Source: Patiria pectinifera (Eukaryota > Echinodermata > Asteroidea > Valvatida > Asterinidae). Taken from it: a stretch of DNA of 64,000 nucleotides. Under the pieces are notes generated by a model. That model searched no databases and was not told the DNA's origin. It saw only the letters and a list, made by a program, of their open reading frames with translations. This document shows, piece by piece, positions 2,650 to 54,000 of this stretch. Where the stretch lies: the NCBI GenBank assembly GCA_029964075.1, contig CM057130.1, forward strand, positions 6,634,001-6,698,000, given 5' to 3'. Every line of letters begins with the position of its first letter. Position 1 is the first letter of the stretch. A program made the position numbers and the translations under genes.

Positions 2650-3149
2650 NNNNNNNNNNNNNNNNNNNNNNNNNNNNNNNNNNNNNNNNNNNNNNNNNNN
2701 NNNNNNNNNNNNNNNNNNNNNNNNNNNNNNNNNNNNNNNNNNNNNNNNNNNNNNNNNNNNNNNNNNNNNNNNNNNNNNNNNNNNNNNNNNNNNNNNNNNN
2801 NNNNNNNNNNNNNNNNNNNNNNNNNNNNNNNNNNNNNNNNNNNNNNNNNNNNNNNNNNNNNNNNNNNNNNNNNNNNNNNNNNNNNNNNNNNNNNNNNNNN
2901 NNNNNNNNNNNNNNNNNNNNNNNNNNNNNNNNNNNNNNNNNNNNNNNNNNNNNNNNNNNNNNNNNNNNNNNNNNNNNNNNNNNNNNNNNNNNNNNNNNNN
3001 NNNNNNNNNNNNNNNNNNNNNNNNNNNNNNNNNNNNNNNNNNNNNNNNNNNNNNNNNNNNNNNNNNNNNNNNNNNNNNNNNNNNNNNNNNNNNNNNNNNN
3101 NNNNNNNNNNNNNNNNNNNNNNNNNNNNNNNNNNNNNNNNNNNNNNNNN
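2650..3149. other. Assembly gap of 500 N
   Basis: Exactly 500 consecutive N, a round number that suggests a scaffold gap of nominal size. Order and distance across it are not proven by the sequence. Confidence 0.99.
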
Positions 3150-6010
3150 GTTTAAGACCTATCCTTAAATAGACAATTGAAGTAAAAACTAATATAAAAA
3201 CTGCCATGGTTGATTTTTCAGGAATTTTCTAAGCAAAAAGGGTCTTTTCATTATAACTTCCGGTCTGATGACGTCATACATTTTAAACTTTGCACACGTC
3301 TGAAGTGGGTCAAGATCATCATATACACCAATATTTAGGCGATTCCGACAAACTTCGCCGCAGACATCTATTCAAAATACATTTTTGGAAATGTTCAACC
3401 TGTCGCTAGAGGGCGCTCGAAGATTGCATGACGTCATCGGTAGATGATTTCAAGAATACTATCGGCCAAGAGACTAACACCGTTAAAAGCAAGTTCATAT
3501 CTATTACCACTTTCAAATAAAAAGCCACTTCCGGTTTTGGTCTTTTTCGACCGGAAGCAAGGGTCACGTGATTTCACGCACACTGAATGAAATAAAGACC
3601 TCAACCTACTCTACCACTTGCCGGCAACAGAATGCTGCGGACGTGTACGGTTGATTTCTTATGCATTTTTAAATATTAAAAGTGTCACTATTCAATTGCC
3701 TATAAATAAACACCGGATGACGTCATCATGACGTCATCATTACAAAATGTTGTTTGAATTAGGGTCTTTGCTTGGACAAAGATTGGTGTAAATGAATTAC
3801 TGGCAAAGAGTTGAAAATGCCCTCTGAAAATCGACATTTTAAAAAAAAATTCTGTGTACAAAGTCTATGGGAAAAATTAAATATTCAAAATTCTATAATA
3901 AATCACGTGATGACGTCAGCATGACGAAAAGTTTCGGCACACATCTTCAGATGATGCTTAATAACTATGCTGAGTTTAAAGTTGATCGGATTTAAAATAA
4001 TTGCCAAAGTGGCTTGTAGAATAAAAACGTGTACAAAACCTATGGGAAAAGTGGAAAAAGAAAAAAAAAACTAGAGCTGTATGTCTGTTTGCAACAGAAC
4101 ACAGGGCTTTTCCGCATTACGATTTTTTTTTATCAATAATACATCCCTGACTATGCGCATGAATGAACATAAAATCTGTCAAAGTAAGCCGAAAATCGGC
4201 TAAAACGGTCACTGTGGACAGGATTTGACCTCGGCAATACGATGTATGTGCATGTGTACATGGTCTTTGCTTGGAAAAAGAGTGATCTATTACTGGCAAA
4301 GAGTCGAAAATGCTCTTTGAAAATTGACAATTTTTTTTTAATTTTTGATGAAATCATCGTGACGTCACTTTGGACTTTGCATACTAGTACGATTATCTAC
4401 CTACCCACCAAGTTTCATGACAGTTGTACCTTTCCTTATATGAGTTTTGAAAAATCGCATTTTGATGACGTCATAATGACGTCACACATTTTTCAAGTTT
4501 TGTGCGAATACCTATTACCTAACAGACCAAATGCAAAGAAGAATTTTGCATTTTGCATGTTGCGTTCGGGAGATATGGCTAAAAGGTCGAAAAAAATAAA
4601 TATTCATATAAAATCTCAGGATGACGTCATCATGACGTCACCTCATTTTTAATCTATAACACATCCTGGTATAGCCACATACCAAGTTTCAACCCAATCG
4701 GACTTACATTTCTGTAGATATAAGACTTCACAATATGCACGTAATTTTTTGAAAAATCAATAAAAAATTAGGTGATAACGTCATCGTGACGTCATAGTCT
4801 TGGCATAATTTTTGTATGAGGGTCTTCCTTGGCTGTAACTTTGATGACGATTCCAGATCGCCAAGTTATAAAAATGGTGAACTGAAAACGTGTACAAAGT
4901 CAATGGGTTAAAAATCCCACAGCAGAAAAACTGCACCTTTAAATACGTGATTTGCCTTTAAACTGAATTATTTTTATAAAATATTACTTGATATTCTGAC
5001 TCTTGGGAATATTTTCAATCAAATGACAGGCGTAAAAAAATACGATTTCTTTTTCCTCCTCATAGTAATTCTCAGCCGAAGTTCAGAACTACTCAGTAAG
5101 ATATATCAGTGTTGTATAGGGAAAGACTTGTGGAGAAAGCTGTGTACAAAGTCTGTGAGAAGAAATAATTATTCATGAATCCATAATAAATCATTTGATG
5201 ATGACGTCATCGTGACGTCATAGTCTTGGCATAATTTTTGTATGAGGGTCTTCCTTTGCTGTAACTTTGATGACGATTCCAGATCGCCAAGTTATAAAAA
5301 TGGTGGCTTGAAAACGTGTACAAAGTCAATAAGTTAAAAATCCCACAGCCGAAAAACTGCACCTTTAAATACGTGATTGGCCTTTAAACCGGAACATTTT
5401 TATAAAATATTACTTGATATTCTGACTCTTGGGAATATTTTCAATCAAATGGCAAGCGTAAAAAATACGATTTCTTTTTCCTTCTCATAGTAATTCTCAG
5501 CCGAAGTTCAGAACTACTCAGTAAGATATATCAGTGTTGTATAGGAAAAGACTTGTGGAGAAAGCTGTGTACAAAGTCTATGAGAAAAATTAATTATTCA
5601 TAAATCCATAATAAATCACTTGATGACGTCACCGTGACGTCACTCTTCGGGACACATCTTGGCTATAGGGACTATGCTTATGCCAATTTTCAATGATATC
5701 TGACAAAGATTAATGCCAAAAGTAATACGTCACTGTCTATGCGCATGCATGAACATAAAATCTGTCAAAATTAGCCGAAAATCGGCTAAAACGGTCACCG
5801 TGGACAGGATTTGACCTCAGCAACACGTGCGCTGCAGGCTGACTGACATACGATGTATGTGCCTATGTACAACGTACGTGCATGTACATGTACATGTACA
5901 TTGTGGACGTCCTGTCCTGTGCATGTTTCGAAGCAGAGGTATTGTCAACGTGAAGTTTTAAGCGTGCGCAGGGTATCTTCGAGTTCGCTTATCGCCTCGA
6001 AACTTTGAAA
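3150..6010 (+). repeat. CRE array, unit A
   Basis: Complete unit of 2,861 bp. A region of about 427 bp (gatgacgtcatcgtgacgtcat ... cacctttaaatacgtg) is repeated inside it, starting near 4772 and 5199. Confidence 0.8.
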
Positions 6011-6919
6011 TGTTTTAGACCTACCCTTCAACCAACAATTAAAGTAAAAACAAATATAAAAAATGCCATGGTTGATTTTTCAGGAATTTTCAAATGAAAA
6101 AGGGTCTTTTCATTATAACTTCCGGTTTGATGACGTCATCTGCCTAAAACTTCGCACATGTCTTAAGTGGGTCAAGGTCATCATATACACCAATATTTAG
6201 GCGATTCCGACAAACTTCGCCACAGACATCTATTCAAAATACATTTTTGAAAATTTTCAACCTGTCGCTAGAGGGCGCTCGAAGATTGCATGACGTCATC
6301 GGTAGATGATTTAAAGAATACTATCGACCAAGAGACTAACACCGTTAAAAGCAAGTTCATATCTATTACCACTTTTAAATACTAAGCCACTTCCGGTTTT
6401 GGCCTTTTTCGACCGGAAGCAAGGGTCACGTGATTTCACGCACACTGAATGAAATAAAGACCTCAACCTATTCTACCACTTGCCGGCAACAGAATGCTGC
6501 GGACGCGTACGGTTGATTTCTTATGCATTTTTAAATATTAAAAGTGCCACAATTTAATTGCCTATAAATACACACCGGATGACGTCATCATGACGTCATC
6601 ATTCCACAATGTTGTTTGAATTAGGGTCTTTGCTTGGATAAAGAGTGGTGTAAATTAATTATTGGCAAAGAGTCGAAAATGCCCTTTGAAAAGCGACAAT
6701 TTTTTTTAATTTTCTGTGTACAAAGTCTATGGGAAAAATTAAATATTCAAAAATCTATAATAAATTAGTCGATGACGTCACCATGACGTCAATCTTCGGG
6801 ACACATCTTTGCTATAGGGACTATGCTTATGCCAACTTTGAATGATGTCTGACAAAGATTAATGCAAAAAGTGGCGTGTAGAAAAAACGTGTACAAAGTC
6901 TATGGGCTTTTGGGCAAAA

Positions 6920-6951
<32 letters not shown>

Positions 6952-8896
6952 AGAAAAACTAGAGGTCTATGTCTGTTTGCAACAGAACATAGGGCTTTTC
7001 CGCATCATAATTTTTTTTAATCAATAATATGCCTTGAATATGCATGAACATAAAATATGTCAAAGTTACCCGAAAAATCGGCTAAAACGGTCACTGTGGA
7101 CAGGATTTGACCTCGGCAATACGATGTATGTGCGCGTGTACAAGATCTTTGCTTGGACAAAGAGTGATCTTAATAAATTACTGGCAAAGAGTCGAAAACG
7201 CACTTTGAAAATCGACAATTATTTTTAAATTTTTGATGACGTCATCGTGACGTCACTTCGAACTTTGCATACTAGTATGATTGACTACCTACCCACCAAA
7301 TTTCATGACAATTGGACCTTTCCTAATATGAGTTTTGAAAAATTGCATTTTGATGACGTCATGATGACGTCACACATTTTTCAAGTTTTGTGCGAATAGC
7401 TATTACATAACAGACCAAATGCAAAAAAGAATTTTGCATTTTGCATGTTGCGTTCGGGAGATATGGCTAAAAGGTCCAAACAAATAAATATTCATATAAA
7501 ATCTCAGAATGACGTCATCATGACGTCACCTCATTTTTAATCTATAACACATCCTGGTATAGCCACATACCAAGTTTCAACCCAATCGGACTTACATTTC
7601 TGTAGATATAAGACTTCACAATATGTACGTAAATTTTCAAAAATCAATAAAAAAATTAGGTGATGACGTCATCGTGACGTCATAATCTTGGCATAATTTG
7701 TGTATGAGGGTCTTCCTTAGCTGTAACTTTGATGACGATTCCAGGTCGCCAAGTTATAAAAATTGTGGCTTGAAAACCTGTACAAAGTCAATGGGTTAAA
7801 AATCCCACAGCAGAAAAACTGCACCTTTAAATACGTGATTTGCCTTTAAACTGAAACATTTTTATAAAATATTACTTGCTATTCTAACTCCTGGGAATAT
7901 TTTCAATCAAATGGCAGACGTAACAAAATACGATTTCTTTTTCCTTCTCATAGTAATTCTCGGCCGAAGTTCAGAACTACTCAGTAAGATATATCAGTGT
8001 TGTATAGGAAAAGACTTGTGGAGAAAGCTGTGTACAAAGTCTATGAGAAAAATTAATTATTCATGAATCCATAATAAATCACTTGATGATGACGTCATCA
8101 TGATGTCATAGCCTTGGCATAATTTTTGTATGAGGGTCTTCCTTGGCTGTAACTTTGATGACGATTCCAGATCGCCAAGTTATAAAAATGGTGGCTTGAA
8201 AACGTGTACAAAGTCAATGGGTTAAAAATCCCACAGCAGAAAAACTGCACCTTTAAATGCGTGATTTTCCTTTAAACTGAAACATTTTTATAAAATATTA
8301 CTTGCTATTCTAACTCTTGGGAATATTTTCAATCAAATGACAGGCGTAAAAAAATACGATTTCTTTTTCCTTCTCACAGTAATTCTCAGCCGAAGTTCAG
8401 AACTACTCAGTAAAATATATCAGTGTTGTATAGGGAAAGACTTGTGGAGAAAGCTGTGTACAAAGTCTATGAGAAAAATTAATTATTCATAAATCCATAA
8501 TAAATCACATGAAGACGTCACCCTGTTGCACTCTTCGGGACAAAACTTGGCTATAGGGACTATGTTTATGCCAACTTTCAATGATATCTGACGAAGATTA
8601 ATGCCAAAAGTGCTATAATACGTCCCTGTCTATGCGCATGCATGAACATAAAATCTGTCAAAGTTAGCCGAAAATCGGCTAAAACGGTCACTGTGGACAG
8701 GATTTGACCTCAGCAACACGTGCGCTGCAGGCTGACTGACTACGATGTATGTGCCTATGTACAACGTACGTGCATATACATGTACATTGTGGACGTCCTG
8801 TCCTGTGCATGTTTTGAAGCAGAGGTATTGTCAACGTGAAGTGTTAAGCTTGCGCAGGGTATGTTCGAGTTCGCTTATCGCCTCGAAACTTTGAAA
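6011..8896 (+). repeat. CRE array, unit B
   Basis: Complete unit of 2,886 bp, closely similar to unit A along its whole length and with the same internal duplication of about 427 bp (near 7660 and 8086). The AAG tract is at about 6918-6955. Confidence 0.8.
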
Positions 8897-9849
8897 TGTT
8901 TCAGACCTACCCTCCAATCAACAATTAAAGTAAAAACAAATATAAAAACTGCCATGGTTGATTTTTTAGGAATTTTCAAATGAAAAAGGGTCTTTTCATT
9001 ATAACTTCCGGTCTGATGACGTCATTCGCCTAAAACTTCGCACACGTCTTAGGGTGGTCAAGGTCATTATATACACCATTATTTAGGCGATTCCGACAAA
9101 CTTCGCCACAGACATCTATTCAAAATACATTTTTGCTAATTTTCAACCTGTCGCTAGAGGGCGCTCGAAGATTGCATGACGTCATCGGTAGATGATTTGA
9201 AGGCTACTATCGGCCAAGAGACTAACACCGTTAAAAGCAAGTTCATTTCTATTACCACTTTTAAATAATAAGCCACTTCCGGTTTGGGCCTTTTTCGACC
9301 GGAAGCGAGGGTCACGTGATTTCACGTACACTGAATGAAATAAAGACCTTAACCTACTCTACCACTTGCCGGCAACAGAATGCTGCGGACGCGTACGGTT
9401 GATTTCTTATGCATTTTTAAATATTAAAAGTGTCACAATTTAATTGCCTATAAATAAACACCTGATGACGTCATCATGACGTCATCATTACACAATGTTG
9501 TTTGAAATAGGGTCTTTGCTTGGACAAAGAGTGATATAAATGAATTACTGGCAAACAGTCGAAAATGCCCTTTGAAAATCGACATTTTTTCCTTAATTTT
9601 TGTGTTCAAAGTCTATGGGACAAATTAAATATTCAAAAATCTATAATAAATTAGTCGATGACGTCACCATGACGTCACTCTTCGGGGCACATCTCTGCTA
9701 TAAGGACTATGACTATGCTTAATTTGAATGATGTATGACAAAGATTAGTACCAAAAGTGGCACTGAGAAAAAACGTGTACAAAGTCTATGGGATTTAGGC
9801 GACAAAAAGAAGAAGAAGAAGAAAGAAAAAAAATGAGAACAAAAAGAAA

Positions 9850-10240
9850 GGCTTTTCCGCTTTTTTGCGGAAAAGCCAAAAATCAGAACAAAAAGAAAGG
9901 CTTTTCCGCAATAATGCGGAAAAGCCAAAAAAAGGAAAAAAAAAAACTTTAACGAAAACAATAGCTGTTCCCAATTGAAATTGGGAACAGCTAAAAAGGA
10001 AAAAAAAAAATTTTAACGAAAACAAAAGCTGTTCCCAATTGAAATTGGGAACAGCTAAAAATAACAGAAACAAGAGCTGTTTCGGTGTGTACACCGAAAC
10101 AGCTAAAAAAAGGTTTTTTTGCTGTTTCGGTGTGTACACCGAAACAGCTAAAAAAAGGTTTTTTTGCAAATTTTGCGAAAAAGCCACAAAAAAAATCAGA
10201 ACAAAAAGAAAAGCTTTTTCGCAAATTTTGCGAAAAAGCC
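9850..10240. repeat. Cluster of seven perfect or near-perfect hairpins
   Basis: Palindromes lie at 9850-9877 and 9899-9926 (GGCTTTTCCGC stems), 9963-9992 and 10027-10056 (AGCTGTTCCCAATT stems), 10075-10104 and 10121-10148 (GCTGTTTCGGTG stems) and 10213-10239 (GCTTTTTCGCAAA stem). They are separated by A-rich linkers that repeat agaacaaaaagaaa or aaaaaggaaaaaaaa. The stem sequence differs between classes but pairing is kept in every one. Confidence 0.9.
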
Positions 10241-10270
10241 AACTAGAGGTTGTTGGAACAACCACACCGT

Positions 10271-10355
10271 GTTGGGCCATTGTTGATGTTGACCTTGATT
10301 GTTGATGTTAATGTTAATGTTGACTGTTGATGTTGATGTTGATGTTGAGGGTTGA
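10271..10355 (+). repeat. GTTGAT/GTTAAT microsatellite
   Basis: Irregular tandem six-base motifs (gttgatgtt, gttaatgtt) following the hairpin cluster. Confidence 0.8.
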
Positions 10356-11883
10356 AAGTTGAAAAATAGCGCGTGTAGTAATTATACAGAGGATAGTTAA
10401 AAAGAGTCAGGTGAGAACCTGCACGCGCGTATGCTACTGAACTGTAAACTGATCAAGTATACAGAAACCCATTAAATAGCTAAAAGTAAAGGTCGCACAC
10501 CATTGGCACAATACAAAATATTGCTCGCCATATCCTTTTTACCCTAATGCGCATGTTTTTGGAAAAAAGCGCCCAATTTAAAAAAAGCGCCCAATTGGAC
10601 GATTTTGCCAGCCCAATTTTTGAGTATCATATATGACGTCATCAGAAGTAAAAAATGTGCTTGCGTTAAGAAGTTGTCATGTAAACGTGTACAAAACACT
10701 GGTAAACACTTAAGATACATTGGTTCATCAAACAGCCGTTACATGAAGCTCAATAGTTAACATACAACAGTCGTAAAACCAGACACTCAAAAAAGCAGGC
10801 ACGGGGAATTCCCTTTCGTACGGAATCATAGCGCACTGTTTTTCGGGAATTTCCCTCGGTACGCAATCATCCCCATTTGCTGTACACACAATGTATGTGG
10901 CATTAAATGAGCGTTTCAAGACGTAGGTGTGTTCAACTTCAAATTTCAAGGGGACTGCAGGGCATCTCCAAGTTTACTTATTGAAACGAAACTTTGGGAA
11001 GTTTTAGACCTATTATTAAAGTGCCATTTAAAGCACAAAACTTAATTATATCTCTGACGGTTGATTTTTTAGCAATTTTCAAAGGAAAAGAGGTCTTTTC
11101 ATTGTAACTTCTGGTCAATCTAGGCAGACTCTAACATCGTTGAAAGCAAGTTCATATCTTTTTCCACTTTCAAATTATTTGGCACTTCCGGTTTCAACCG
11201 GAAGGAAGGGTCACGTGATTTGACGCACACAAGATAAAATGAAAATCAAATATTATCATGTCGATTCCCGCAAAATTCAAGTTCCGGTCTCTCACGGTTG
11301 ATTTTATATTGAATTTCAAAGATTAAATTTATTATTTTTTGAAGTGACGTCACGTGACCTATAATGACGTCATATTGACGTTATTGCAAAAAAGCACATA
11401 TTCAGTTGGTTGTGCATTCATGTATTGACAATTGAAGTTCATATATGTTTTCATGTTAACAAACAGTTCTGGAGAAGAAATGTGTCTTGAAGAATAAAAA
11501 GAATAATAGTAAATTCTTACAATAACAATAGGTGTTGGGCTGAGGCCCAACACCTAACTAGAAATCTATGTCTGTTTGCAACAGAACATAGGGCTTTTCC
11601 GCATTATGATTTGTTTTTATCAGTTATATGTCCCTGACTATGCATGAACATAAAATCTGTCAAAGTTAGCCAAAAATCGGCTAAAACGCTCACTGTGGAC
11701 AGGATTTGACCTCGGCAACACGTGTTCTGCGGGCTGACGACATACGATATGTAAAACGTACGTGCATGTACATGTACATTGTGGACGTCCTGTGCATGTT
11801 TTGAAGCAGAGGTGTTGTCAACGTGAAGTTTTAAGCGTGCGCAGGGCATGTCCCAGTTCGCTTAATGTCTCGAAGCTTTGAAA

Positions 11884-12985
11884 TGTGTTAGACCTACCCT
11901 TAAATAGACAATTAAAGTAAAAACTAATATAAAAACTGCCATGGTTGATTTTTTAGGCATTTTCAAAGGAAAACGGGTCTTTTCATTATAACTTCCGGTC
12001 TGATGACGTAATACGCCTAAAACTTCGCACACGTCTTAAGTGGGTCAAGGTTATCATATACACCAATATTTAGGCGATTCAGACAAAATTCGCCACAGAC
12101 ATCTATTCAAAATACATTTTTGAAAATTTTCAACCTGTCGCTAGAGGGCGCTCGAAGAATGCATGACGTCATCTGTAAATGATTTGAAGAAAACTATCAG
12201 CCAAGAGACTAACACCGTCAAAAGCAAGTTCATATCTGTTATCGCTTTTAAAATATAAGCCACTTCCGGTTTTGGCCTTTTTCGACCGGAAGCAAGGGTC
12301 ACGTGATTTCACGCACACTGAATGAAATAAAGAGCTTAATCTACTCTACCACTTGCCGGCAACAGAATGCTACGGACGCGTACGGTTGATTTCTTATGCA
12401 TTTTTAAATATTAAAAATGTCACAATTTAATTTCCCATCAATAAACACCGGATGACGTCATCATGACGTCATCATTACACAATGTTGTTTGAATTAGGGT
12501 CTTTGCTGGACAAAGATTTGTGTATTAATGAATTACTGGCAAAGAGTCAAAAATGCCCTTTGAAAATTTACAATTTTTTTAAATTTCTGTGTACAAAGTC
12601 TATGGGAAAAATTAAATATTCAAAAATCTATAATAAATTAGTCGATGACGTCATCATGACGTCGCTCGTCCGCATAAATCTATGCTGTATGGACTATGCC
12701 TATGCAAACTTTGAACGATATGCAACAAAGTTTAATGGCAAAAGTGGCGTGTAGAATAAACGTGTACAAAGTCTATGGGGTTTTAAGGAAAAAAAGAAGA
12801 GGAAGAAGAAAGAAAAAAATCAGAACAAAACGAAAGGCTTTTCCGCAACTATGCGGAAAAGCCAAAAAAATCAGAACAAAAAGAAAGGCTTTTTCGCAAA
12901 TTTTGCGAAAAAAGCCAACTAGAGCTGTATGTCTGTTTGCAAACAGAACACAGGGCTTTTTCGCATTTTACAAATATTTATGTTT
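11884..12985 (+). repeat. CRE array, unit D, truncated, with two terminal hairpins
   Basis: The head and CRE pairs match units A-C but the unit stops after about 1.1 kb. Before its tail it carries two hairpins, 12837-12864 (GGCTTTTCCGC stem) and 12887-12916 (GGCTTTTTCGC stem). These are of the same classes as in the cluster at 9850-10240, so the hairpins belong to the array. Confidence 0.75.
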
Positions 12986-19989: not shown

Positions 19990-22900
19990 CTGTCAGGATT
20001 TAAATTATACTTTATAATAGTCATAAAACGTAAAATGTTGTGTTTTTCCCCAGAGCGGGGTTGCTTATACACCATCTGACAAATAGTCAGCCTAAAAATA
20101 GTGTGGCCAAGCCCATCACAAGTCCGGTCAAACGAGAATCACAAGTCCAAACCTCAGGCGCGGTTCGCACCAAATTTTGAATGGTGAGCGCTGATCAAAT
20201 CCCACAATCATGCACAATTTTCAACAGTTTTCAACAGGGGGCCGAAGGAGGGTTCGACACAAAACCAACCCCCTCTAGATCCCGGGGAAGGGGGGAGGCG
20301 GAGACCTTTTGCCGGTGACGTCACTTTCTAAAATTCGCTACTGCTACTTCCCTTTTTTGGGGGGGCGGATTTTTTTGGGGGGGGGGGGGAAAAAAAAAAA
20401 TTGGGGGGCTACAGCCCCTTGACCACCCCCCCCCCCCCACGTAGAACCGCGCCTGCCTAACATAAGTCAAGCAATAATTAACTTTGACGAACAATGACAA
20501 ACAAATAATTTTGTCACAGTTCAGTTGAATAGCTTGCGAATTAATTTGATACTGTCAAGTAAAGGACTGGACTAAACACTGCTGAAATACACTCCTGGGG
20601 GCTTTCCTCCCCCAAGGAAGAGAAAGCCAAATTATTAGAAACTGAAAGGGGAAATCTGTTAGCACTACGTTTGGACTGTGATTATTAAACAGAGATGTTT
20701 TAAAGAAGCCCACACCTTCTTGTCATTAATAAATACAGCCACGTACTTTGATAACACTTCAGGCTGGAATCTTCGTTATGGCCGCAGTTGTGCACACCCC
20801 ATCCGTTGTGTGGACAACTGCCAAGGCTAACTTCTGTACCAGCGCAGTTTATACCATCGAGGTGGATCGCCCCGGATCCGGCACCATGGGTAGCTGAGCT
20901 GTAGGCGTTTGTCGCATACGGGTAGCCCAACTGACGACAGGCGACATTGGCGTCGTTCATGTCCCAATTGTCATCACACACGGTGCCCCAGGCGCCACTG
21001 TGCCACACCTCCACCCTGCCCACGTTTGACGTCGCACCATTCACCAAACGGATTGATACTGCAAGTATCAAATGAAACAAACACTAACTTTTCTCGTTTA
21101 ATTAATTGTAATGAGGTGCATTGTAGTGCACTCTGCGGACGTGTGATAAACACGGACGTGTGTATTGATGTTGTGTGTATGTGTCACACACAGAACGTGT
21201 ATATGACATTTAATACACACGGCTTGAAATACGTATGCATACAGGGTGAGTAAAAAAAAATGTCCCTTTGGATAAATCCTTGTCTCCCACAAAAACGGGA
21301 ACGATCGCTTGTTTTTTCCCAAGGGTTATCCAAGGGGGTGTCTAGGAGTGTTGAAGTCCAAGATATTTCGGGGGACAATAGACAGTGCAATCTTTACATA
21401 AAACACACAAAAAGCTTGAAGCAATTAATAAATATGCACAATATTGAGTGATGACGTTATTCAGGGAACTTGGAATTTGGTCCATTATGTACAAAATTAA
21501 CAATGGTCGTTTTTTTGTGGTGGTGGAGGGGATGGTTAGCCATCCATACCAACCTCCTGATTGTCTGATTCCAATAAGCCTCTGTACTAATGACGTCACA
21601 CTTTGTTTACATGTGCACTTTCCTATGGAGCCAGTGGGGCCCACGATCCACTGAGCACCATAGGACGTCATTGATACAGAGGCTTATTATTGTTACACAG
21701 ATCTTTCACTCACAACTCACCACAGAGTAGTCCACTCAATGGAGTCAACTACTGGCACACTTAGGATAAATGATGTTTATTTCAGTGAGTGCAACATTTC
21801 AATTTCCTGTCAAAAAATACTGAAGTTCAATTCGGACGATTCACTATGCAGTACGCTACCAAGAATTTGCCACGGAGAGCTCATTTTTTTCCAGTGGATT
21901 TGTGAAAGATAGTTGACAAATTCACAGCGCGGGACATTTAAAATTGTTAGGTTTTTTTCCGGTCAGTAGTTTCGTAAGCGTATGATTCTAGTATATGTTT
22001 GCCCTTTCCGTTTCCTTTTATCAATATGGTGTTTTTGGTAAGGCGGCAGAACGCTTTGCCCCAATCTAAAACAAATTAGCTTAGGTTGCCTTCTGACACT
22101 CATTCAAATGGGTCATGTTTTGTCGACCGTAAACTTGAAAAAAGGCCTCTCCATGTGAAACTCGTGGTGGCGCACTGCATTGTGAATCGCTCGAATTGGG
22201 TCTTACTTGTATCACACAAGGTTCCTTCGTATCCAGAAGTGCACGCGCAAGTGTAGCTGTTGACTGCATCATTGCAGACGCCATTTTGACAAGGGTTGCT
22301 AGCACATTCATTGGTGTCTGCCATAAAGACGGAACATTACACAAAAATACAATTGCATAATACTCTTTGTTTGGTGTCAGCATAATACTTTTCTTGATTG
22401 ATATTGCTTGTTCGGTTTGTGATGGCAGAATAATATTCTAACTAGTAAGTGAAATAAATCTTTCTAAAAGTTGACGAGGATGCAGTAAGCTCATAACATA
22501 TATTTTAAATCAATTTACACTTCTTTCTCGTTCACAGGCTTATTAAAATTGGAATTAAATCTCACTGCTTTTTATGAGCAGATTGTTTGGACATAATTCC
22601 GTCAACGAAGTCGGTTTTTTATTACTAAAATCAAGTGACAATGGCAGTTTTATGTATCTTCTCATGCGTATCACTGAAGGCGTGAGACCTGTCCTCAAGA
22701 GGGCGCCCTATACAAGGGGTCACACTCGCGGTACAAACATTCATGTCATTCTTACCACCCGCCCCTATAATGACATGGACCCCGAATGACACACACCACA
22801 AACTTTATCACTGTCTTTTGTGCTTGTAGTATGGATGTGGATGGTTGAATGATTATGGAGAACAAGATTTTGTTTGATGTCCACGAATGTACGGAAGTAA

Positions 22901-45029: not shown

Positions 45030-48000
45030 CTGTCAGGATTTAAATTATACTTTATGATCATCAATTTTCATCATAATACGTACAATTTAATGTTTTTCCC
45101 CAGAGCGGGGTTGCTTATACACCATCTGACAAATAGTCAGCCTAAAAATGGTGTGGCCAAGCCCATCACAAGTCCGGTCAAACGAGAATCACAAGTCCAA
45201 ACCTCAGGCGCGGTTCGCACCAAATTTTGAATGGTGAGCGCTGATCAAATCCCACAATCATGCACACTATAATAATTACCTCTGTACAAATTCACCCTTC
45301 TCAAGAATGGCTACGCCTCTGGCAAACATTTACGTTATTCTTATCAATGCAATTTTCAACAGTTTTCAACGGGGGGCCGGGGGAGGGTTCGACACAAAAC
45401 CAACCCCCTCTAGATCCGTGCCTGGACAGCTGTGGCGAATATTTTTGAGGGGGGGGGGAGCGGAGACCTTTTGCCGGTGACGTCACTTTGTAAAATTTGC
45501 TACTGCTACTTCCCTTTTGGGGGGGGGGGGGGCAAAACAAAATATTGGGAGGACGCAGCCCCTTGACCACCCCCTTCCGTAGAACTGCGCCTGCCTAACA
45601 TAAGTCAAACAATAATTAACTTTGACGAACAATGACAAACGAATAATTTTGTCCCAGTTCAGTTGAATAGCTTGCGAATTAATTTGATATACTGTCATGT
45701 GAAGGACTGGACTAAACACTGCTGAAATACACTCATGGGGGCTTCCCCCCAAGGAAGAGACAACCAAATTATTAGAAACTGAAAGGGGAAATCTGTTAGC
45801 ACTACGTTGGACTGTGATTATTAATAAGATGTTTTAAAGAAACCCACACCTTCTTGTCATTAATTAATACAGCCACGTACTTGGATAACACTTCAGGCTG
45901 GAATCTTCGCCATGGCCGCAGTTGTGCACACCCCATCCGCCATGTGGACAACTGCCAAGGCTAACTTCTGTACCAGCGCAGTTTATACCATCGAGGTGGA
46001 TCGCCCCGGATCCGGCACCATGGGTAGCTGAGCTGTAGGCGTTTGTCGCATACGGGTAGCCCAACTGACGACAGGCGACATTGGCGTCGTTCATGTCCCA
46101 ATTGTCATCACACACGGTGCCCCAGGCGCCACTGTGCCACACCTCCACCCTGCCCACGTTTGACGTCGCACCATTCACCAAACGGATTGATACTGCAAGT
46201 ATCAAATGAAACAAACACTAACTTTTTCTCGTTTAATTAATTGTAATGAGGTGCATTGTAGTGCACTCTGCGGACGTGTGATAAACACGGACGTGTGTAT
46301 TGATGTTGTGTGTATGTGTCACACACAGAACGTGTATATGACATTTAATACACACGGCTTGAAATACGTATGCATACAGGGTGAGTAAAAAAAAATGTCC
46401 CTTTGGATAAATCCTTGTCTCCCACAAAAACGGGAACGATCGCTTGTTTTTTTTTCCCAAGGGTTATCCAAGGGGGTGTCTAGGAGTGTTGAAGTCCAAG
46501 ATATTTCGGGGAACAAGAGACAGTGCAATCTTTACATAAAACACACAAAAAGCTTGAAGCAATTAATAAATATGCACAATGTTGAGTGATGACGTTATTC
46601 AGGGAACGTGGAATTTGGTCCAATATGTAAAAAATTAACAATGGTCGTTTTTTGTGGTGGTGGAGGGGATGGTTAGCCATCCATACCGACCTCCTGATTG
46701 TCTGATTCCAATAAGCCTCTGTACTAATGACGTCACACTTTGTTTACATGTGCACTTTCCTATGGAGCCAGTGGGGCCCACGATTATGGGCGGCCATTAG
46801 GGCAAAAAAGACAATCACAAAATTAAAGTTAAACAAAAATACAATAAAATCAAATGCAAAATAATAAACAATAACGTACAATTAACAATGAAAATGTAGG
46901 ACAACAAAATAAAGAAACCCAAAACAAAATTGAATCGTAAAAAAAAATAAAAACATAAATTAAACATAACAAATAAAACACAAATTAAATTAAACCCAAA
47001 ATTATTGTAAGTCCCGCGTCGAATGTAAACCCCAAAATTACTGTAAGCCCCGCGACGAATGTAAATCCCAAAATTACTGTAAGCCCCGCGTCGAATGTAT
47101 ACCCCAAAATTACTGTAAGCCCCGCGTCGAATGTATACCCCAAAATTACTGTAAGTCCCGCGTCGAATGTAAACCCCAAAATTACTGTAAGTCCAGCGTC
47201 GAATGTAAACCCCAAAATTACTGTAAGCCCCGCGACGAGTGTATACCCCAAATTTACTGTAAGTCCCGCGTCGAATGTATACCCCAATATTACTGTAAGT
47301 CCCGCGTCGAATGTATACCCCAATATTACTGTAAGTCCCGGCCGCGACGAATGTATACCCCAAAATTACTGTATTAGTCCCGCGACAAATGTAAACCCCA
47401 AAATAACTGTAAGTCCCGCGACAAAATTGTAAACCCCAAAATTACTTAAAGCGGGGTACCAGTCTACATGGACTGGTATACAACAACCTATCACTGCAGC
47501 GTGGCCGCGCTACATGGACTGTACACGTGCAACTTTTGCGTTTATTTGGAGGGGGCGTAATCATACACGAAGCCACTATGTTACATGTCAAGTCGGATGG
47601 AGGGGAATTTTTGAGGGGGGGGGGCAGCCACCATGATCAATTAATTTTGTCAGATTGGGATTTTTTTTCTTTTTGGGGAAGTGATTATAGCTGAGAACAT
47701 AGCAAGGATGGACCGATATGTGCAGGCTAAGTTCAGGGGATAATTTTTATTGTTGGAAATTCCAAGAAAATGTGCCAATTTGCCGCCGTGAAGTACTATT
47801 AAGTGGGGAGTGCAATTGGGTTTTGGGTTTTGTTATAATCATCAGCAGGACTGTTGCTCATTCTTTTGTACTTTTTGGGCTAGGAGTCAAATGATCCGAG
47901 GACCGAAGGCTCTGTGAACATTTTTGATAGAGAATATTTCTGTTGATTTACATTGGTATGGATACCAGTGTAGTTACATAATTGAGTTGCCCAGAGTGTA

Positions 48001-51000
48001 TTTGTTAGGTTTTAATATGTTTACATTGTACATTGTTTTATACATACATTCTTGTCTTTATTAAGTTTATGGAACATCTTAGGTTGGGGTGTGGTAGTTG
48101 GGCGTAAAGGGAACACTTGGGATTTTCTCTCGGGGGGGGGGGGGGTTAAAAGGGAGTGTTTCATAAGTCCTTGGACTTCTTACAACTTCCTTATAACTTC
48201 TCTGCTTTTCATTTATCTTTGTTACTTATCTTTGTCATTTACTTTTATGTTTTGTTTATCTATTAAGTTACGTACTTTATATGTTTTCATTATGAAGTTA
48301 TGAAATAAACTAGATTGATTGATTGATTGAAAAAAAAATACGCATTAAGGCCAAAAAAAAAGTCTCCGGTTTCTGGTATGGAGCTTGCCAAAAAAGTGGT
48401 GCGGCGACGCGGCTTTTTTTTTTTACCCGACTTTTTGCTTCAAATGTCGGCTGATGACTGCAAATGGTGTCCGACTAAACTTGGTGCAAATATATGGGAG
48501 TCCAGAGAGGCCACATAAAGCTTATTCTCGATCATAACCCCGTATAAAAACACGTTAAAATTGTGCAGCAGCAGGATTCCAGTCAAACCAGTGAGTTTGG
48601 CGGTTTTGAGATATCATCTTTCATTGAAAAAAAACTTTTTCATTTTGCCGACGCGCATGGCTACGGCGACGCGCGCGCATACCAGAAACCGGAGACTTTG
48701 TTTTTTTTTGGCCTAAGGAAGTTCCGGTTCCGATACAAGGTGCTGGCGGTGGGTGGGTTAACTTGTCAACGCATAAACCGCCTGCGGGCCGATTAGGTTA
48801 GTATATCCCCAGAGAGCAGGATTTTTAAAAACCCATCTCCGGTGTAGGCGACGCAAGGTTTGTTTTGCGTACAATTTTGTGTGGTTTTTGGTTTCTAATT
48901 CACTTAATGATGTGATTTATACAGGTGATAATAATTATGCCGTCCCACCTGTTGTTTTTGTGACGGGTGAAACAGAGGATATTTTGGGGTGCTTTTTCCG
49001 AACTTCATCAGTCACCATACATAGTCTTCTACGTATTCACTCCTTTGCTAACGATGGTAAATAATATATAGATATATAATATATATAATATATATAATGT
49101 CGGTCTCAGGGGCGTAAATCCGGGGGAGGGAAGCAAGGGCGGATCCAGAACCAAAAAATAATTGGTCCTCTAAAAAGTGGGTCCGAAAAATTACGGCGTG
49201 CGGTTTGAATTTTTGGATTCTAGATGCTCTGTGGTGCGATCTGGGGCAATTTCTGACCACTTTGACTTTTTTTTCAGGAAAAGATGGTGGTGTATACGCA
49301 GTGCCTGCCTTTATTGCGACGTCACATACAAAAAATGGTTTCTATTTGGGGGGGGGGCGGGCCTCCATTGCCCCCCCCCCCAAAAAAATCCGCCCTTGGA
49401 GGGATGGGGGTTTATACCCCCCCCCCCCCATTTTTGACCAAGGGGGATGGACTATTGGATCACATCCCCACACCCCTTGCCCACGTGGTGAGAAGACAAA
49501 AAAGGGCAGATTTTGAGATATTTTAAACTTCCCTACAACCAAAATGTATTCAATAGAGTAGAGAAAAAGGAAGAAAAAGTACAACAGCTTTAAATGCGCC
49601 TTTTGATGTAAGGTCAAGGGGCGTAGGTATACATGATGTACATCTGTTCAACTCCCCCTGGTGTCATTGTGTGATGTCCAGCAAGAGTCCCCCCCGCCTT
49701 CGAATTTTCACGGCCGTGCAATTTTTTATTAGTTTAGTCATCCCCAGTCCCCAGAACAGATCTCCTTCACTGCCGGTGTGTTTCGAGAAGGGTCCGTTTG
49801 CCGGGTGTTTTTTTTGTGGGTAGTACAAAGACAAGTGGCATCTTTTTATCGGTTAATTTCTTTTAACGTTCACGAGATCTCGCCTTTTTGACTGAGAAAG
49901 TAGGGTTAAATCTTCTTTGTTGTATTCGCGTTTTTGTCTCTGAAATTTGTCTCTGAAATACGCTCTAGGCATTATGTACCTACACTGGTACCGATATCCA
50001 TACCAGTGTAAATCAACAGAATTTTCCCCTACAACTTACAAGACTTATAGTCATGCTGGTCGCAAGATAAAGTCAAAAATGTTCATCAGTTCGCAGAGCC
50101 TTCGGTCCTCAGATCATTTGACTCCTTTCCCAAAAAGTAAAAAGAAAGAGGAACGGTCCTGCTGATGATTATAACAAAACCCAATTTTATTCCCCGTTAA
50201 ATCAACTTTACTTCACGGCGGCAAATTGGCAATTTTCTTGGAATTTTCCAACAATGAAAATTATTCCCTGAACTTAGCCTGCACATATCGGTCCATCCTT
50301 GCTATGTTCTCAGCTATAAATCACTTCCCAAAAAAGAAAAAAAATCCCAATCTGACAAAATTAATTGATCATGGTGGCTGCCCCCCCCCCTCAAAAATTC
50401 CCCTCCATCCGACTTGACATGTAACATAGTGGCTTCGTGTATGATTACGCCCCCTCCAAATAAACGCAAAAGTTGCACGTGTACAGTCCATGTAGCGCGG
50501 CCACGCTGCAGTGATAGGTTGTTGTATACCAGTCCATGTAGACTGGTACCCCGCTTTAAGTAATTTTGGGGTTTACAATTTTGTCGCGGGACTTACAGTT
50601 ATTTTGGGGTTTACATTTGTCGCGGGACTAATACAGTAATTTTGGGGTATACATTCGTCGCGGCCGGGACTTACAGTAATATTGGGGTATACATTCGACG
50701 CGGGACTTACAGTAATATTGGGGTATACATTCGACGCGGGACTTACAGTAAATTTGGGGTATACACTCGTCGCGGGGCTTACAGTAATTTTGGGGTTTAC
50801 ATTCGACGCTGGACTTACAGTAATTTTGGGGTATACATTCGACGCGGGACTTACAGTAATTTTGGGGTATACATTCGACGCGGGACTTACAGTAATTTTG
50901 GGGTATACATTCGACGCGGGACTTACAGTAATTTTGGGGTATACATTCGACGCGGGGCTTACAGTAATTTTGGGATTTACATTCGTCGCGGGGCTTACAG

Positions 51001-54000
51001 TAATTTTGGGGTTTACATTCGACGCGGGACTTACAATAATTTTGGGTTTAATTTAATTTGTGTTTTATTTGTTATGTTTAATTTATGTTTTTATTTTTTT
51101 TTACGATTCAATTTTGTTTTGGGTTTCTTTATTTTGTTGTCCTACATTTTCATTGTTAATTGTACGTTATTGTTTATTATTTTGCATTTGATTTTATTGT
51201 ATTTTTGTTTAACTTTAATTTTGTGATTGTCTTTTTTGCCGTAATGGCCGCCCATACACGATCCACTGAGCACCATAGGACGTCATTGATACAGAGGCTT
51301 ATTATTGTTACACAGATCTTTCACTCACAACTCACCACAGAGTAGTCCACTCAATGGAGTCAACTACTGGCACACTTAGGATAAATGATGTTTATTTCAG
51401 TGAGTGCAACATTTCAATTTGCTGTCAAAAAATACTGAAGTTCAATTCGGACGATTCACTATGTAGTACGCTACCAAGAATTTGCCACGGAGAGCTCATT
51501 TTTTTCCCAGTGGATTTGTGAAAGATAGTTGACAAATTCACAGCGCGGGACATTTAAAATTGTTAGGTTTTTTTCCGGTCAGTAGTTTCGTAAGGGTATG
51601 ATTCTAGTATATGTTTGCCCTTTCCGTTTCCTTTTATCAATATGGTGTTTTTGGTAAGGCGGCAGAACGCTTTGCCCCAATCTAAAACAAATTAGCTTAG
51701 GTTGCCTTCTGACACTCATTCAAATGGGTCATGTTTTGTCGACCGTAAACTTGAAAAAAGGCCTCTCCATGGGAAACTCGTGGTGGCGCACTGCATTGTG
51801 AATCGCTCGAATTGGGTCTTACTTGTATCACACAAGGTTCCTCCGTATCCAGAAGTGCACGTGCAAGTGTAGCTGTTGACTGCATCATTGCAGACGCCAT
51901 TTTGACAAGGGTTGCTAGCACATTCATTGGTGTCTGCCATAAAGACGGAACATTACACAAAAATACAATTGCATAATACTCTTTGTTTGGTGTCAGCATA
52001 ATACTTTTCTTGATTGATATTGCTTGTTCGGTTTGTGATGGCAGAATAATATTCTTACTAGTAAGTGAAATAAATCTTTCTAAAAGTTGACGAGGATGCA
52101 GTAAGCTCATAACATATATTTTAAATCAATTTATACTTCTTTCTCGTTCACAGGCTTATTAAAATTGGAATTAAATCTCACTGCTTTTTATGAGCAGATT
52201 GTTTGGACATAATTCCGTCAACGAAGTCGGTTTTTTATTACTAAAATCAAGTGACAATGGCAGTTTTATGTATCTTCTCATGCGTATCACTGAAGGCGTG
52301 AGACCTGTCCTCAAGAGGGCGCCCTATACAAGGGGTCACACTCACGGTACAAACATTCATGTCATTCTTACCACCCGCCCCTATAATTACATGGACCCCG
52401 AATGACACACACCACAAACTTTATCGCTGTCTTTTGTACATGGAGTATGGCTGTGGATGGTTAAATGATTATGGAGAACAAGATATTGTTTGATGTCCAA
52501 GAATGTACGGAAGTAATGTTAGGTCTTACTCGTGTTACATAAAGTTCCTTCATATCCAGCAGAACAGGTGCAAGTGTAGCTATTGACTGCATCATTGCAG
52601 ACGCCATTTTGACAAGGGCTGCTAGCACATTCGTTGATGTCTGTCATAAATTCAGAAAAGAATACACCGAGTAAACCAACGCGTTTTAAAATACTCTTCA
52701 AATTTCGCTTGTTCCCCCCCCCCTTGATTCCCAAAGGGGTGCCTGGGGTGGTGTTGAAGTCCAAGATTTTTCGAGGAGGGGGATAGAAAACTTGGAGCAA
52801 TGAATCAATGTGCACAATGTGAGCGATGACGTTATTCGGAGAACTTTGGATTTGGCCCAGTTAGTTTGTTTTGATGCTGGTGCTTGTGGTGGTCGTGGAC
52901 GGGATGGTTAGCCAACCAGACCAACCTCCTGATTGTCTCATTCCAATAAATGTTACAAATATCTTTCGCTCCACAACTCACCACAGAGTAGTCCACTCAT
53001 TGAAGTCAACTACTGGCACACTTAGGATTAATATGGTTATTTTAGGGAGTGAAACATTTCGATTTGCTGTAAAAAAAAAAATAAATAAATTAAAAAAATG
53101 GAAGTTCAATTGGGTCTTACTTGTATCACACAAGGTTCCTCCGTATCCAGAGGAGCACGTGCAAGTGTAGCTGTTGACTGCATCATTGCAGACGCCATTT
53201 TGACAAGGGCTGCTTGCACATTCATTGGTGTCTGCCATAAAGACGGACATTACACCAAACAATTATTCCACAATACTAATTCTCTTTGTTTGGTTTAAAC
53301 ACTATACTTTTCTTGATAGATATTGCTTCCTGTGTTCAGTTTGTGTTGACAACCATTCTAAAACAGTGAGTGGAATAAATCTGTCTAAAGTTGGCAAGGA
53401 TGCAGTATGCTCATAACAAAATCAATTTACATATCTTTTTCATTCACATATTTATTACAATTGGAATGTTCCTTAAATCTCATTGCTTTTAATGTGTAGA
53501 TGTTTTGCACAGTTCATCGTCAATGACTTTTTTTCTAAATTAAAATCCAGTGACAATGGCAGTCCTTTGTATCTGGGGGTATCACAGAGGGCGTGAGACC
53601 TGTCCTCAAGAGGGCGCCCTATTCAAAGGGGCACACTCACGGCAGAACCATGCATGTTATTCTTACCACCCGACCCTATAATGACATGGACCCTGAATGA
53701 CATACACCACAAGCTTTATCACTGTCTTTGGTACATGTAGTATGGCTGTGGATGGTTTAATGATTATAGGGAGAACAAGATATTGTTTGATGTCCAAGAA
53801 TGTACGGAAGTAATGTTAGGTCTTACTCGTGTCACATAAAGTTCCTTCATATCCAGCAGAACAGGTGCATGTGTAGCTATTGACTCCATCATTGCAGACG
53901 CCATGTTGACAAGGGCTGCTAGCACATTCGTTGATGTCTGTCATAAATACATCAAAGAATACAATTTTGTTATTTGTTTGTATTTATTATTTATTTATTT

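Follow-up and report, generated by a model that had tools for sequence, protein, structure and literature searches.

For foldback transposons it is often not known which transposase moves them, as has been said of Tetris in Drosophila (PMC4079207; this and the other papers are cited here from excerpts). For Galileo, conversion and exchange among the long arms have been proposed (PMC3573991). Complete IS3EU families are described as always having TA..TA termini and usually a 6-bp target site duplication (TSD), and IS3EU and GingerRoot as one lineage (PMC10045372); in a set of fungal IS3EU families, the ends are TAYGG..CCRTA and the TSD is 6 bp (PMC12730594). The subject of this work is a foldback element of 4,472 bp found in Patiria pectinifera, in a window (the whole stretch of DNA that was analysed) of 64,000 bp from contig CM057130.1, positions 6,634,001 to 6,698,000, the contig being designated C2 below. 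Its TATGG..CCATA ends and 6-bp TSD agree with both published descriptions of IS3EU, a little-studied group. The element and its relatives are probably moved by an integrase-like DDE transposase of the IS3EU/GingerRoot type, supplied by a long element located elsewhere in the genome.

One genome supplies the ends, the TSD length, a target preference, two families with array-built arms and a candidate source of transposase, and with these together, what moves a foldback becomes testable. Foldback arms would be placed within the integrase-like IS3EU group, arm-to-arm conversion behind arm identity would be a warning for dating, and a ubiquitin ligase is suggested as a transposon gene.

The foldback element and its copies

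The element splits one unit of a cluster of SRCR-domain genes and has exact TATGGGCGGCCATTA termini at 46785-46799 (plus strand) and 51242-51256 (minus strand). These two ends are the only matches to TATGGGCGGCCATTA with up to three mismatches in the window, the mean in shuffled sequence being 1.21. CACGAT flanks the element on both sides as a perfect 6-bp TSD and is present as a single copy at the empty site in a sister unit (Table 1). As CACGAT occurs 20 times in the window against 24.8 expected, neither rarer nor commoner than chance, it is the position and not the hexamer itself that counts. When joined, the flanks of the element align with 21166-22184 with 97.9% identity over 1,029 columns and without an insert. 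In a search of the genome (613.5 Mb, 1,020 contigs), the 501-bp empty site was found uninterrupted at C2:6655400, 6711065 and 6851871 and split at the window element. One of the three uninterrupted sites is the query itself and the other two are 95% alike; one is inverted, and all lie on the contig of the window.

The initial annotation had described a foldback caught together with its empty site, and this is borne out by the exact ends, the CACGAT duplication, the arms of ~1.15 kb, the 36-bp arrays and the insert-free sister units. It is because the sister sites are empty, and not because the arms are alike, that an insertion postdating the local duplication is supported. Structurally, the element has the long inverted arms with tandem repeats, and the middle without recognised genes, of a foldback. 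Its longest open frame (220 aa) passes through a tandem array, and in a Pfam scan none of five open reading frame (ORF) pieces scored above the cut-off. It is a non-autonomous DNA transposon with foldback arms.

Using the terminal 201 bp, 138 candidates were obtained from the genome, the best 40 of which were scored. The exact 15-bp end has 61 + 59 genome occurrences (120; reversed control, 0 + 0), and a 22-bp end sequence at up to three mismatches has 128 + 134 (control, 1 + 1). Both ends were read in 46 copies selected by their good ends, comprising the window element, 20 whole copies, one copy of a second family, three small flank pairs and 21 inverted pairs of exact ends. The TSD is a perfect 6 bp in 39 of these, has one mismatch in three, is a perfect 7 bp in two and is lacking in two, one of which has lost the final bases of its right end; the other, with intact ends, may be a chimera. 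The perfect 6-bp TSDs differ in sequence between copies, and when flanks of different copies were compared, all six bases matched in 1 of 2,070 pairs and at least five in 15. Constant ends and a mostly 6-bp duplication in other copies, as anticipated from the single element, were therefore observed genome-wide.

The target is weakly palindromic (mirror-symmetric) around the 6 bp, and a symmetric target is expected for a dimeric integrase-like enzyme. Among 78 half-sites, A is found at -5 in 42, G or C at -3 in 52 and C or T at -2 in 64, with C as the first TSD base in 31; A or T at -1 (54 half-sites) is not clearly above chance. The binomial values behind these preferences are rough, both half-sites of one insertion being counted apart and the positions picked after looking.

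A second family is represented by L035 (6,654 bp), the first 30 bp of which are as in the window family (family 1). Its arrays have a 19-bp rather than a 36-bp unit, and its core, in which no open frame exceeds 135 aa, is unrelated to that of the window family. A further ten elements, 6.7-8.1 kb long, start and finish like L035 (~110 bp read per end), an extra A being present at one of their 20 ends, and L035 and all ten have perfect 6-bp TSDs. As families 1 and 2 share the end and differ in the arrays, the end is the common part. A miniature of 154 bp, L074 (C18:8998259-8998412), has both exact 15-bp ends, a perfect 6-bp TSD and sequence of the 19-bp-array type.

Candidate source of the transposase

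The Pfam model PF24764 (rva_4, 'integrase core domain'), which we take to represent a domain of IS3EU-type transposases, gave 87 matches in the genome and none in any of 14 control genomes. Among 100 of the 120 exact-end places, which were listed, the only inverted pair holding an rva_4 match (as judged by eye) is C7:20126055-20155668. This pair delimits an element of 29,614 bp (the 29.6-kb element) whose TSD, CATATG, is perfect, whose arrays have the 19-bp unit and whose 30-bp end is that of the window element. Its minus strand includes an rva_4 exon (E = 4.8e-66) in which D and E are 36 residues apart, and, upstream of this exon, a WHIDGNHKL stretch and a weak, below-cut-off helix-turn-helix ORF. 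The nearest relative of the exon (92%) lies at C7:9099189. To the left of this relative, at a distance of 14 kb, is an exact 15-bp end in the correct orientation, after which come repeats of the 19-bp type; on the right, a HECT match is located 0.7 kb away. A second end was not found at this locus.

In the foldback copies that were read whole, nothing was recognised as a transposase, from ORF lists with a lower length limit of 200 aa or 70-100 aa in which short exons could be missed, and a comparison of coordinates by eye placed none of the 87 rva_4 matches inside any foldback copy read. The initial annotation had supposed that the transposase acts in trans and had proposed a search for a full element sharing these ends and encoding a transposase. 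Such an element is present at C7:20126055-20155668, and as judged by its ends and its DDE exon, it is likely the source of transposase for the foldbacks. We infer that a protein of the C7 type would act on the foldback ends and that movement would be of the cut-and-paste type. In the mechanism proposed, the transposase made by the long element elsewhere would bind the shared ~30-bp end, excise the foldback and integrate it at a target site nicked with a stagger of 6 bp or, sometimes, 7; arm-to-arm conversion would keep the long arms alike. The superfamily, initially left open, can be narrowed. A TSD of 6 bp is indeed not the 8-10 bp of Mutator and FB elements, and the published signature, rather than phylogeny, would file the elements under IS3EU/GingerRoot.

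Three other places were assessed as carriers of a transposase and set aside. L023 (8.5 kb) includes an interior insert with a 310-aa ORF, and ten ORF pieces had no Pfam match. The length of the 11.6-kb copy at C7:16331669-16343254 is due to a nested Gypsy-like retrotransposon, as judged from the ORFs in the 9.9 of 11.6 kb that were retrieved. Among the best 150 of 1,962 candidates for the rve model, only C3:9969390 is within ~10 kb of a listed end (by eye), and this is a Gypsy-like pol beside a family-2 end.

Several points weigh against assigning the foldbacks to an IS3EU/GingerRoot-type transposase from the 29.6-kb element. The choice of PF24764 depends on the assumption named above, the superfamily assignment goes by the published signature, the rve model matches the exon with E = 0.18 only, and searches of PDB with the transposase exon and of NCBIfam with three ORFs were empty. 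The 39 perfect TSDs come from copies whose selection by good ends favours good TSDs, and are not a rate for all remnants; 24 of the 46 were read essentially at their ends, two short copies and most of one long copy excepted. The 29.6-kb element and the window element share the terminal ~90 bp (80%) and nothing more, so that a source of the 19-bp-array type would have to cross-mobilise the window family. Finally, the rva_4 transposase could be a nested passenger in the 29.6-kb element.

This last point belongs to an unlikely alternative, in which another superfamily with 6-bp TSDs (hAT6, Dada or Polinton-like) moves the foldbacks and the rva_4 gene is nested in the 29.6-kb element. That element is big enough for insertions and may well hold others. 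No inner inverted pair framing the transposase was found in it, inner inverted repeats of other kinds being present, and both closest transposase loci are accompanied by the exact 15-bp end. The ends here are TA..TA, whereas those of hAT elements are CAG and those of Polintons, which have DNA polymerase B and capsid genes, are AG. A 6-bp TSD agrees with hAT6 and with Polintons alike; CAG-type ends are absent (a hAT transposase was not sought), the ends are TA and not AG, and no DNA polymerase B or capsid match was obtained in Pfam with 10 ORF pieces, a part of the ORFs of the 29.6-kb element. TSDs of 6 bp are reported for hAT6 (PMC12730594) and of 6-7 bp for Dada, the described families of which have no terminal inverted repeats and target small RNA genes (PMC3706591). 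Here, terminal inverted repeats are present and the perfect TSDs are diverse, against Dada; no search for RNA genes at the insertion sites was made. Mutator is said to include most foldbacks (PMC4079207), and a classical FB/TU or Mutator-type foldback might have a TSD of 8-10 bp that happens to read as 6. With the perfect 6 bp in 39 of 46 copies, and no flank pair perfect at 8, 9 or 10 bp in 21 copies, the 8-10 bp TSD of FB and Tetris was not observed, and this explanation is scarcely credible.

It is also quite improbable that an assembly artefact produced the insert, or that differing haplotypes were misjoined in tandem. The two long near-identical stretches in the window (13064-33541 and 38265-64000) and a gap of 500 N would suit such an origin, but an artefact would not yield 6-bp TSDs and copies across many contigs, and the four units of the site on C2, one of them inverted, favour a real gene cluster. 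The insertion is real either way, and only the status of the units as paralogues or alleles would change.

The candidate source may carry a further gene. On its plus strand, the 29.6-kb element includes ORFs for the C-lobe of HECT ubiquitin ligases (E = 4.8e-8, and 1.1e-6 for a second copy). An N-lobe-like ORF on the same strand had no match in a Pfam scan; its matches in PDB are weak (best E = 0.041) and in 20 of 21 cases are to HECT ligases. Of the 16 HECT matches in the genome, three have an rva_4 match no more than 3.5 kb away (by eye), the two being arranged tail to tail in every case; these are at C7:20.14 Mb, at C7:9.10 Mb and, as a weak case, at C21:3.52 Mb. In the 29.6-kb element, the second HECT copy lies 5.5 kb from rva_4. 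The other 12 have no rva_4 match within 3.5 kb, and a HECT neighbour of this kind is lacking for most rva_4 matches. Fourteen of the 16 HECT matches are on contig C7, which looks rich in such elements.

We infer that the HECT gene would be part of the transposon and useful to it. The broader reading, that an animal IS3EU-type lineage has HECT as a standing second gene, tail to tail with the transposase, and drives at least two foldback families sharing only the end, is put forward tentatively, the balance leaning slightly against it. If it is true, the targets of the ligase during movement would be proteins of the host or the transposase, and its gene would be carried much like the passenger genes of fungal IS3EU elements, which include TET/JBP and alpha-kinase (PMC12730594). 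No literature on IS3EU together with HECT, or linking IS3EU to foldback elements, was found in a search apparently not extending to Repbase Reports, where a relative may be described; a wider search on HECT and transposons, judged by titles and the openings of abstracts, gave nothing on the subject either.

Similarity between the arms

The arms of the window element are 94% identical, counting gaps, over 1,177 columns. In the first 900 bp, compared in 100-bp bins, 896 columns are identical, 4 are mismatched and 37 hold gaps, the latter corresponding to one 36-bp unit and one base. Past ~900 bp the similarity drops sharply, and the arms diverge there as in other copies. The same bins in L017 include 86 mismatches and 55 gap columns, and L013 has ~400 bp of near-full arm identity elsewhere in the arms than the window copy.

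The family-1 copies were retrieved through their similarity to the first end. In 18 of the 21 whole ones, the terminal 200 bp of the window element are matched at 96.9-99.5% by one end and at 76-84% by the other; compared without gap columns, the two ends of family-1 copies are 89-95% alike. The same end type is present on both sides in the window copy, L009 and L010, and in a maximum likelihood tree of terminal segments the second ends of these three fall outside the clade of the second ends of the other copies (99% support). When cores are compared, the window copy has 97.3% likeness to L009, 97.1% to L010 and 91.8-96.2% to the eleven other copies with a core aligning in one piece.

These trees and identity profiles suggest that one arm converts the other, with tracts varying by copy. 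As the likeness of the arms fits homogenisation of one by the other, near-identity is no clock. Arm identity does not date the window element, and the recent mobility originally read from it is not supported on that ground.

Host locus and comparison with known systems

Of the ORFs scanned around the element, two match an SRCR domain, one a PAN domain and one an EGF domain. The element is flanked by an SRCR ORF (45867-46217) and the EGF ORF (52981-53262), both on the minus strand, and judging from this position would be intronic. The second of the two long near-identical stretches of the window holds the PAN, SRCR and EGF ORFs, and the further units, at C2:6711065 and, in inverted orientation, at C2:6851871, point to a gene cluster of greater extent. 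A repeat of ~94 bp (21572-21665) encloses the insertion point and has many matches in the genome, of which the best 40 among 2,267 candidates were scored. The interval 3150-12900 is dense with long direct repeats that are about 88-95% alike, their spacings including ~2.9 kb and ~0.4 kb, and is adjoined by the 500-N gap at 2650-3149.

Table 1. Coordinates in the window of the foldback element, its parts and its empty site.
Feature	Position	Strand	Basis or remark
Non-autonomous foldback transposon, 4,472 bp	46785..51256		Ends, TSD, empty site; 20 more complete family copies
TSD CACGAT, left	46779..46784	+	Flank comparison
TSD CACGAT, right	51257..51262	+	Flank comparison
Left terminal inverted repeat	46785..46814	+	Same 30 bp found at either end of L017 (family 1), of L035 (family 2) and of the 29.6-kb element
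Right terminal inverted repeat	51227..51256	-	One base off: C for G at position 16
Left arm	46785..47919	+	Arm alignment
Right arm	50089..51256	-	Terminal segment of 'A' type in tree, identical to left arm for ~900 bp; inner part of 'B' type
36-bp tandem array, 12.5 copies	46991..47446	+	Repeat analysis
36-bp tandem array, 13.3 copies	50559..51046	-	Repeat analysis
Core without recognised coding sequence, common to other copies	47920..50088		ORF lists, core alignment
Empty site CACGAT in sister unit	21642..21647	+	Flank alignment, genome search

Two short elements are nested in the core. The first, of 365 bp (48349-48713), has GGCCAAAA ends and TAA on both sides, a signature that we take to be Harbinger-like. 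Of the 20 other family-1 copies with whole sequence, 14 hold matching sequence, and the nested element therefore predates the spread of those copies. The second (49134-49398), presumably hAT-like by its signature, has CAAGGGCGGAT ends and is flanked by GAGGGAAG and GAGGGATG; a stretch at 623-777 of the window is 84% identical to part of it.

Among foldbacks, the TU elements of sea urchin have array-built arms and an 8-bp TSD, and their likeness to the window element is one of description. PMC4079207 mentions a sea urchin foldback. Galileo and Tetris of Drosophila resemble the elements described here in their long tandem-repeat arms, with arm exchange and conversion proposed (PMC3573991), and in having copies without transposase (PMC4079207). 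They differ in that Galileo has a 7-bp TSD and is assigned to the P superfamily (PMC3573991), whereas Tetris has an 8-10 bp TSD and is assigned to the Mutator superfamily (PMC4079207). The fungal IS3EU-like element Styx shares the 6-bp TSD and an integrase-type DDD/E transposase, but is a coding element of 7.9 kb, and the foldback label is not seen in the excerpt describing it (PMC10853768). With IS3EU and GingerRoot, as far as the excerpts of their descriptions go, the likeness extends to the TA..TA ends, the TAYGG..CCRTA motif, the 6-bp TSD and, in one complete element with the same ends, an integrase-like DDD/E protein. The difference from them lies in the long foldback arms with 36-bp or 19-bp arrays and in the HECT exons of the candidate source.

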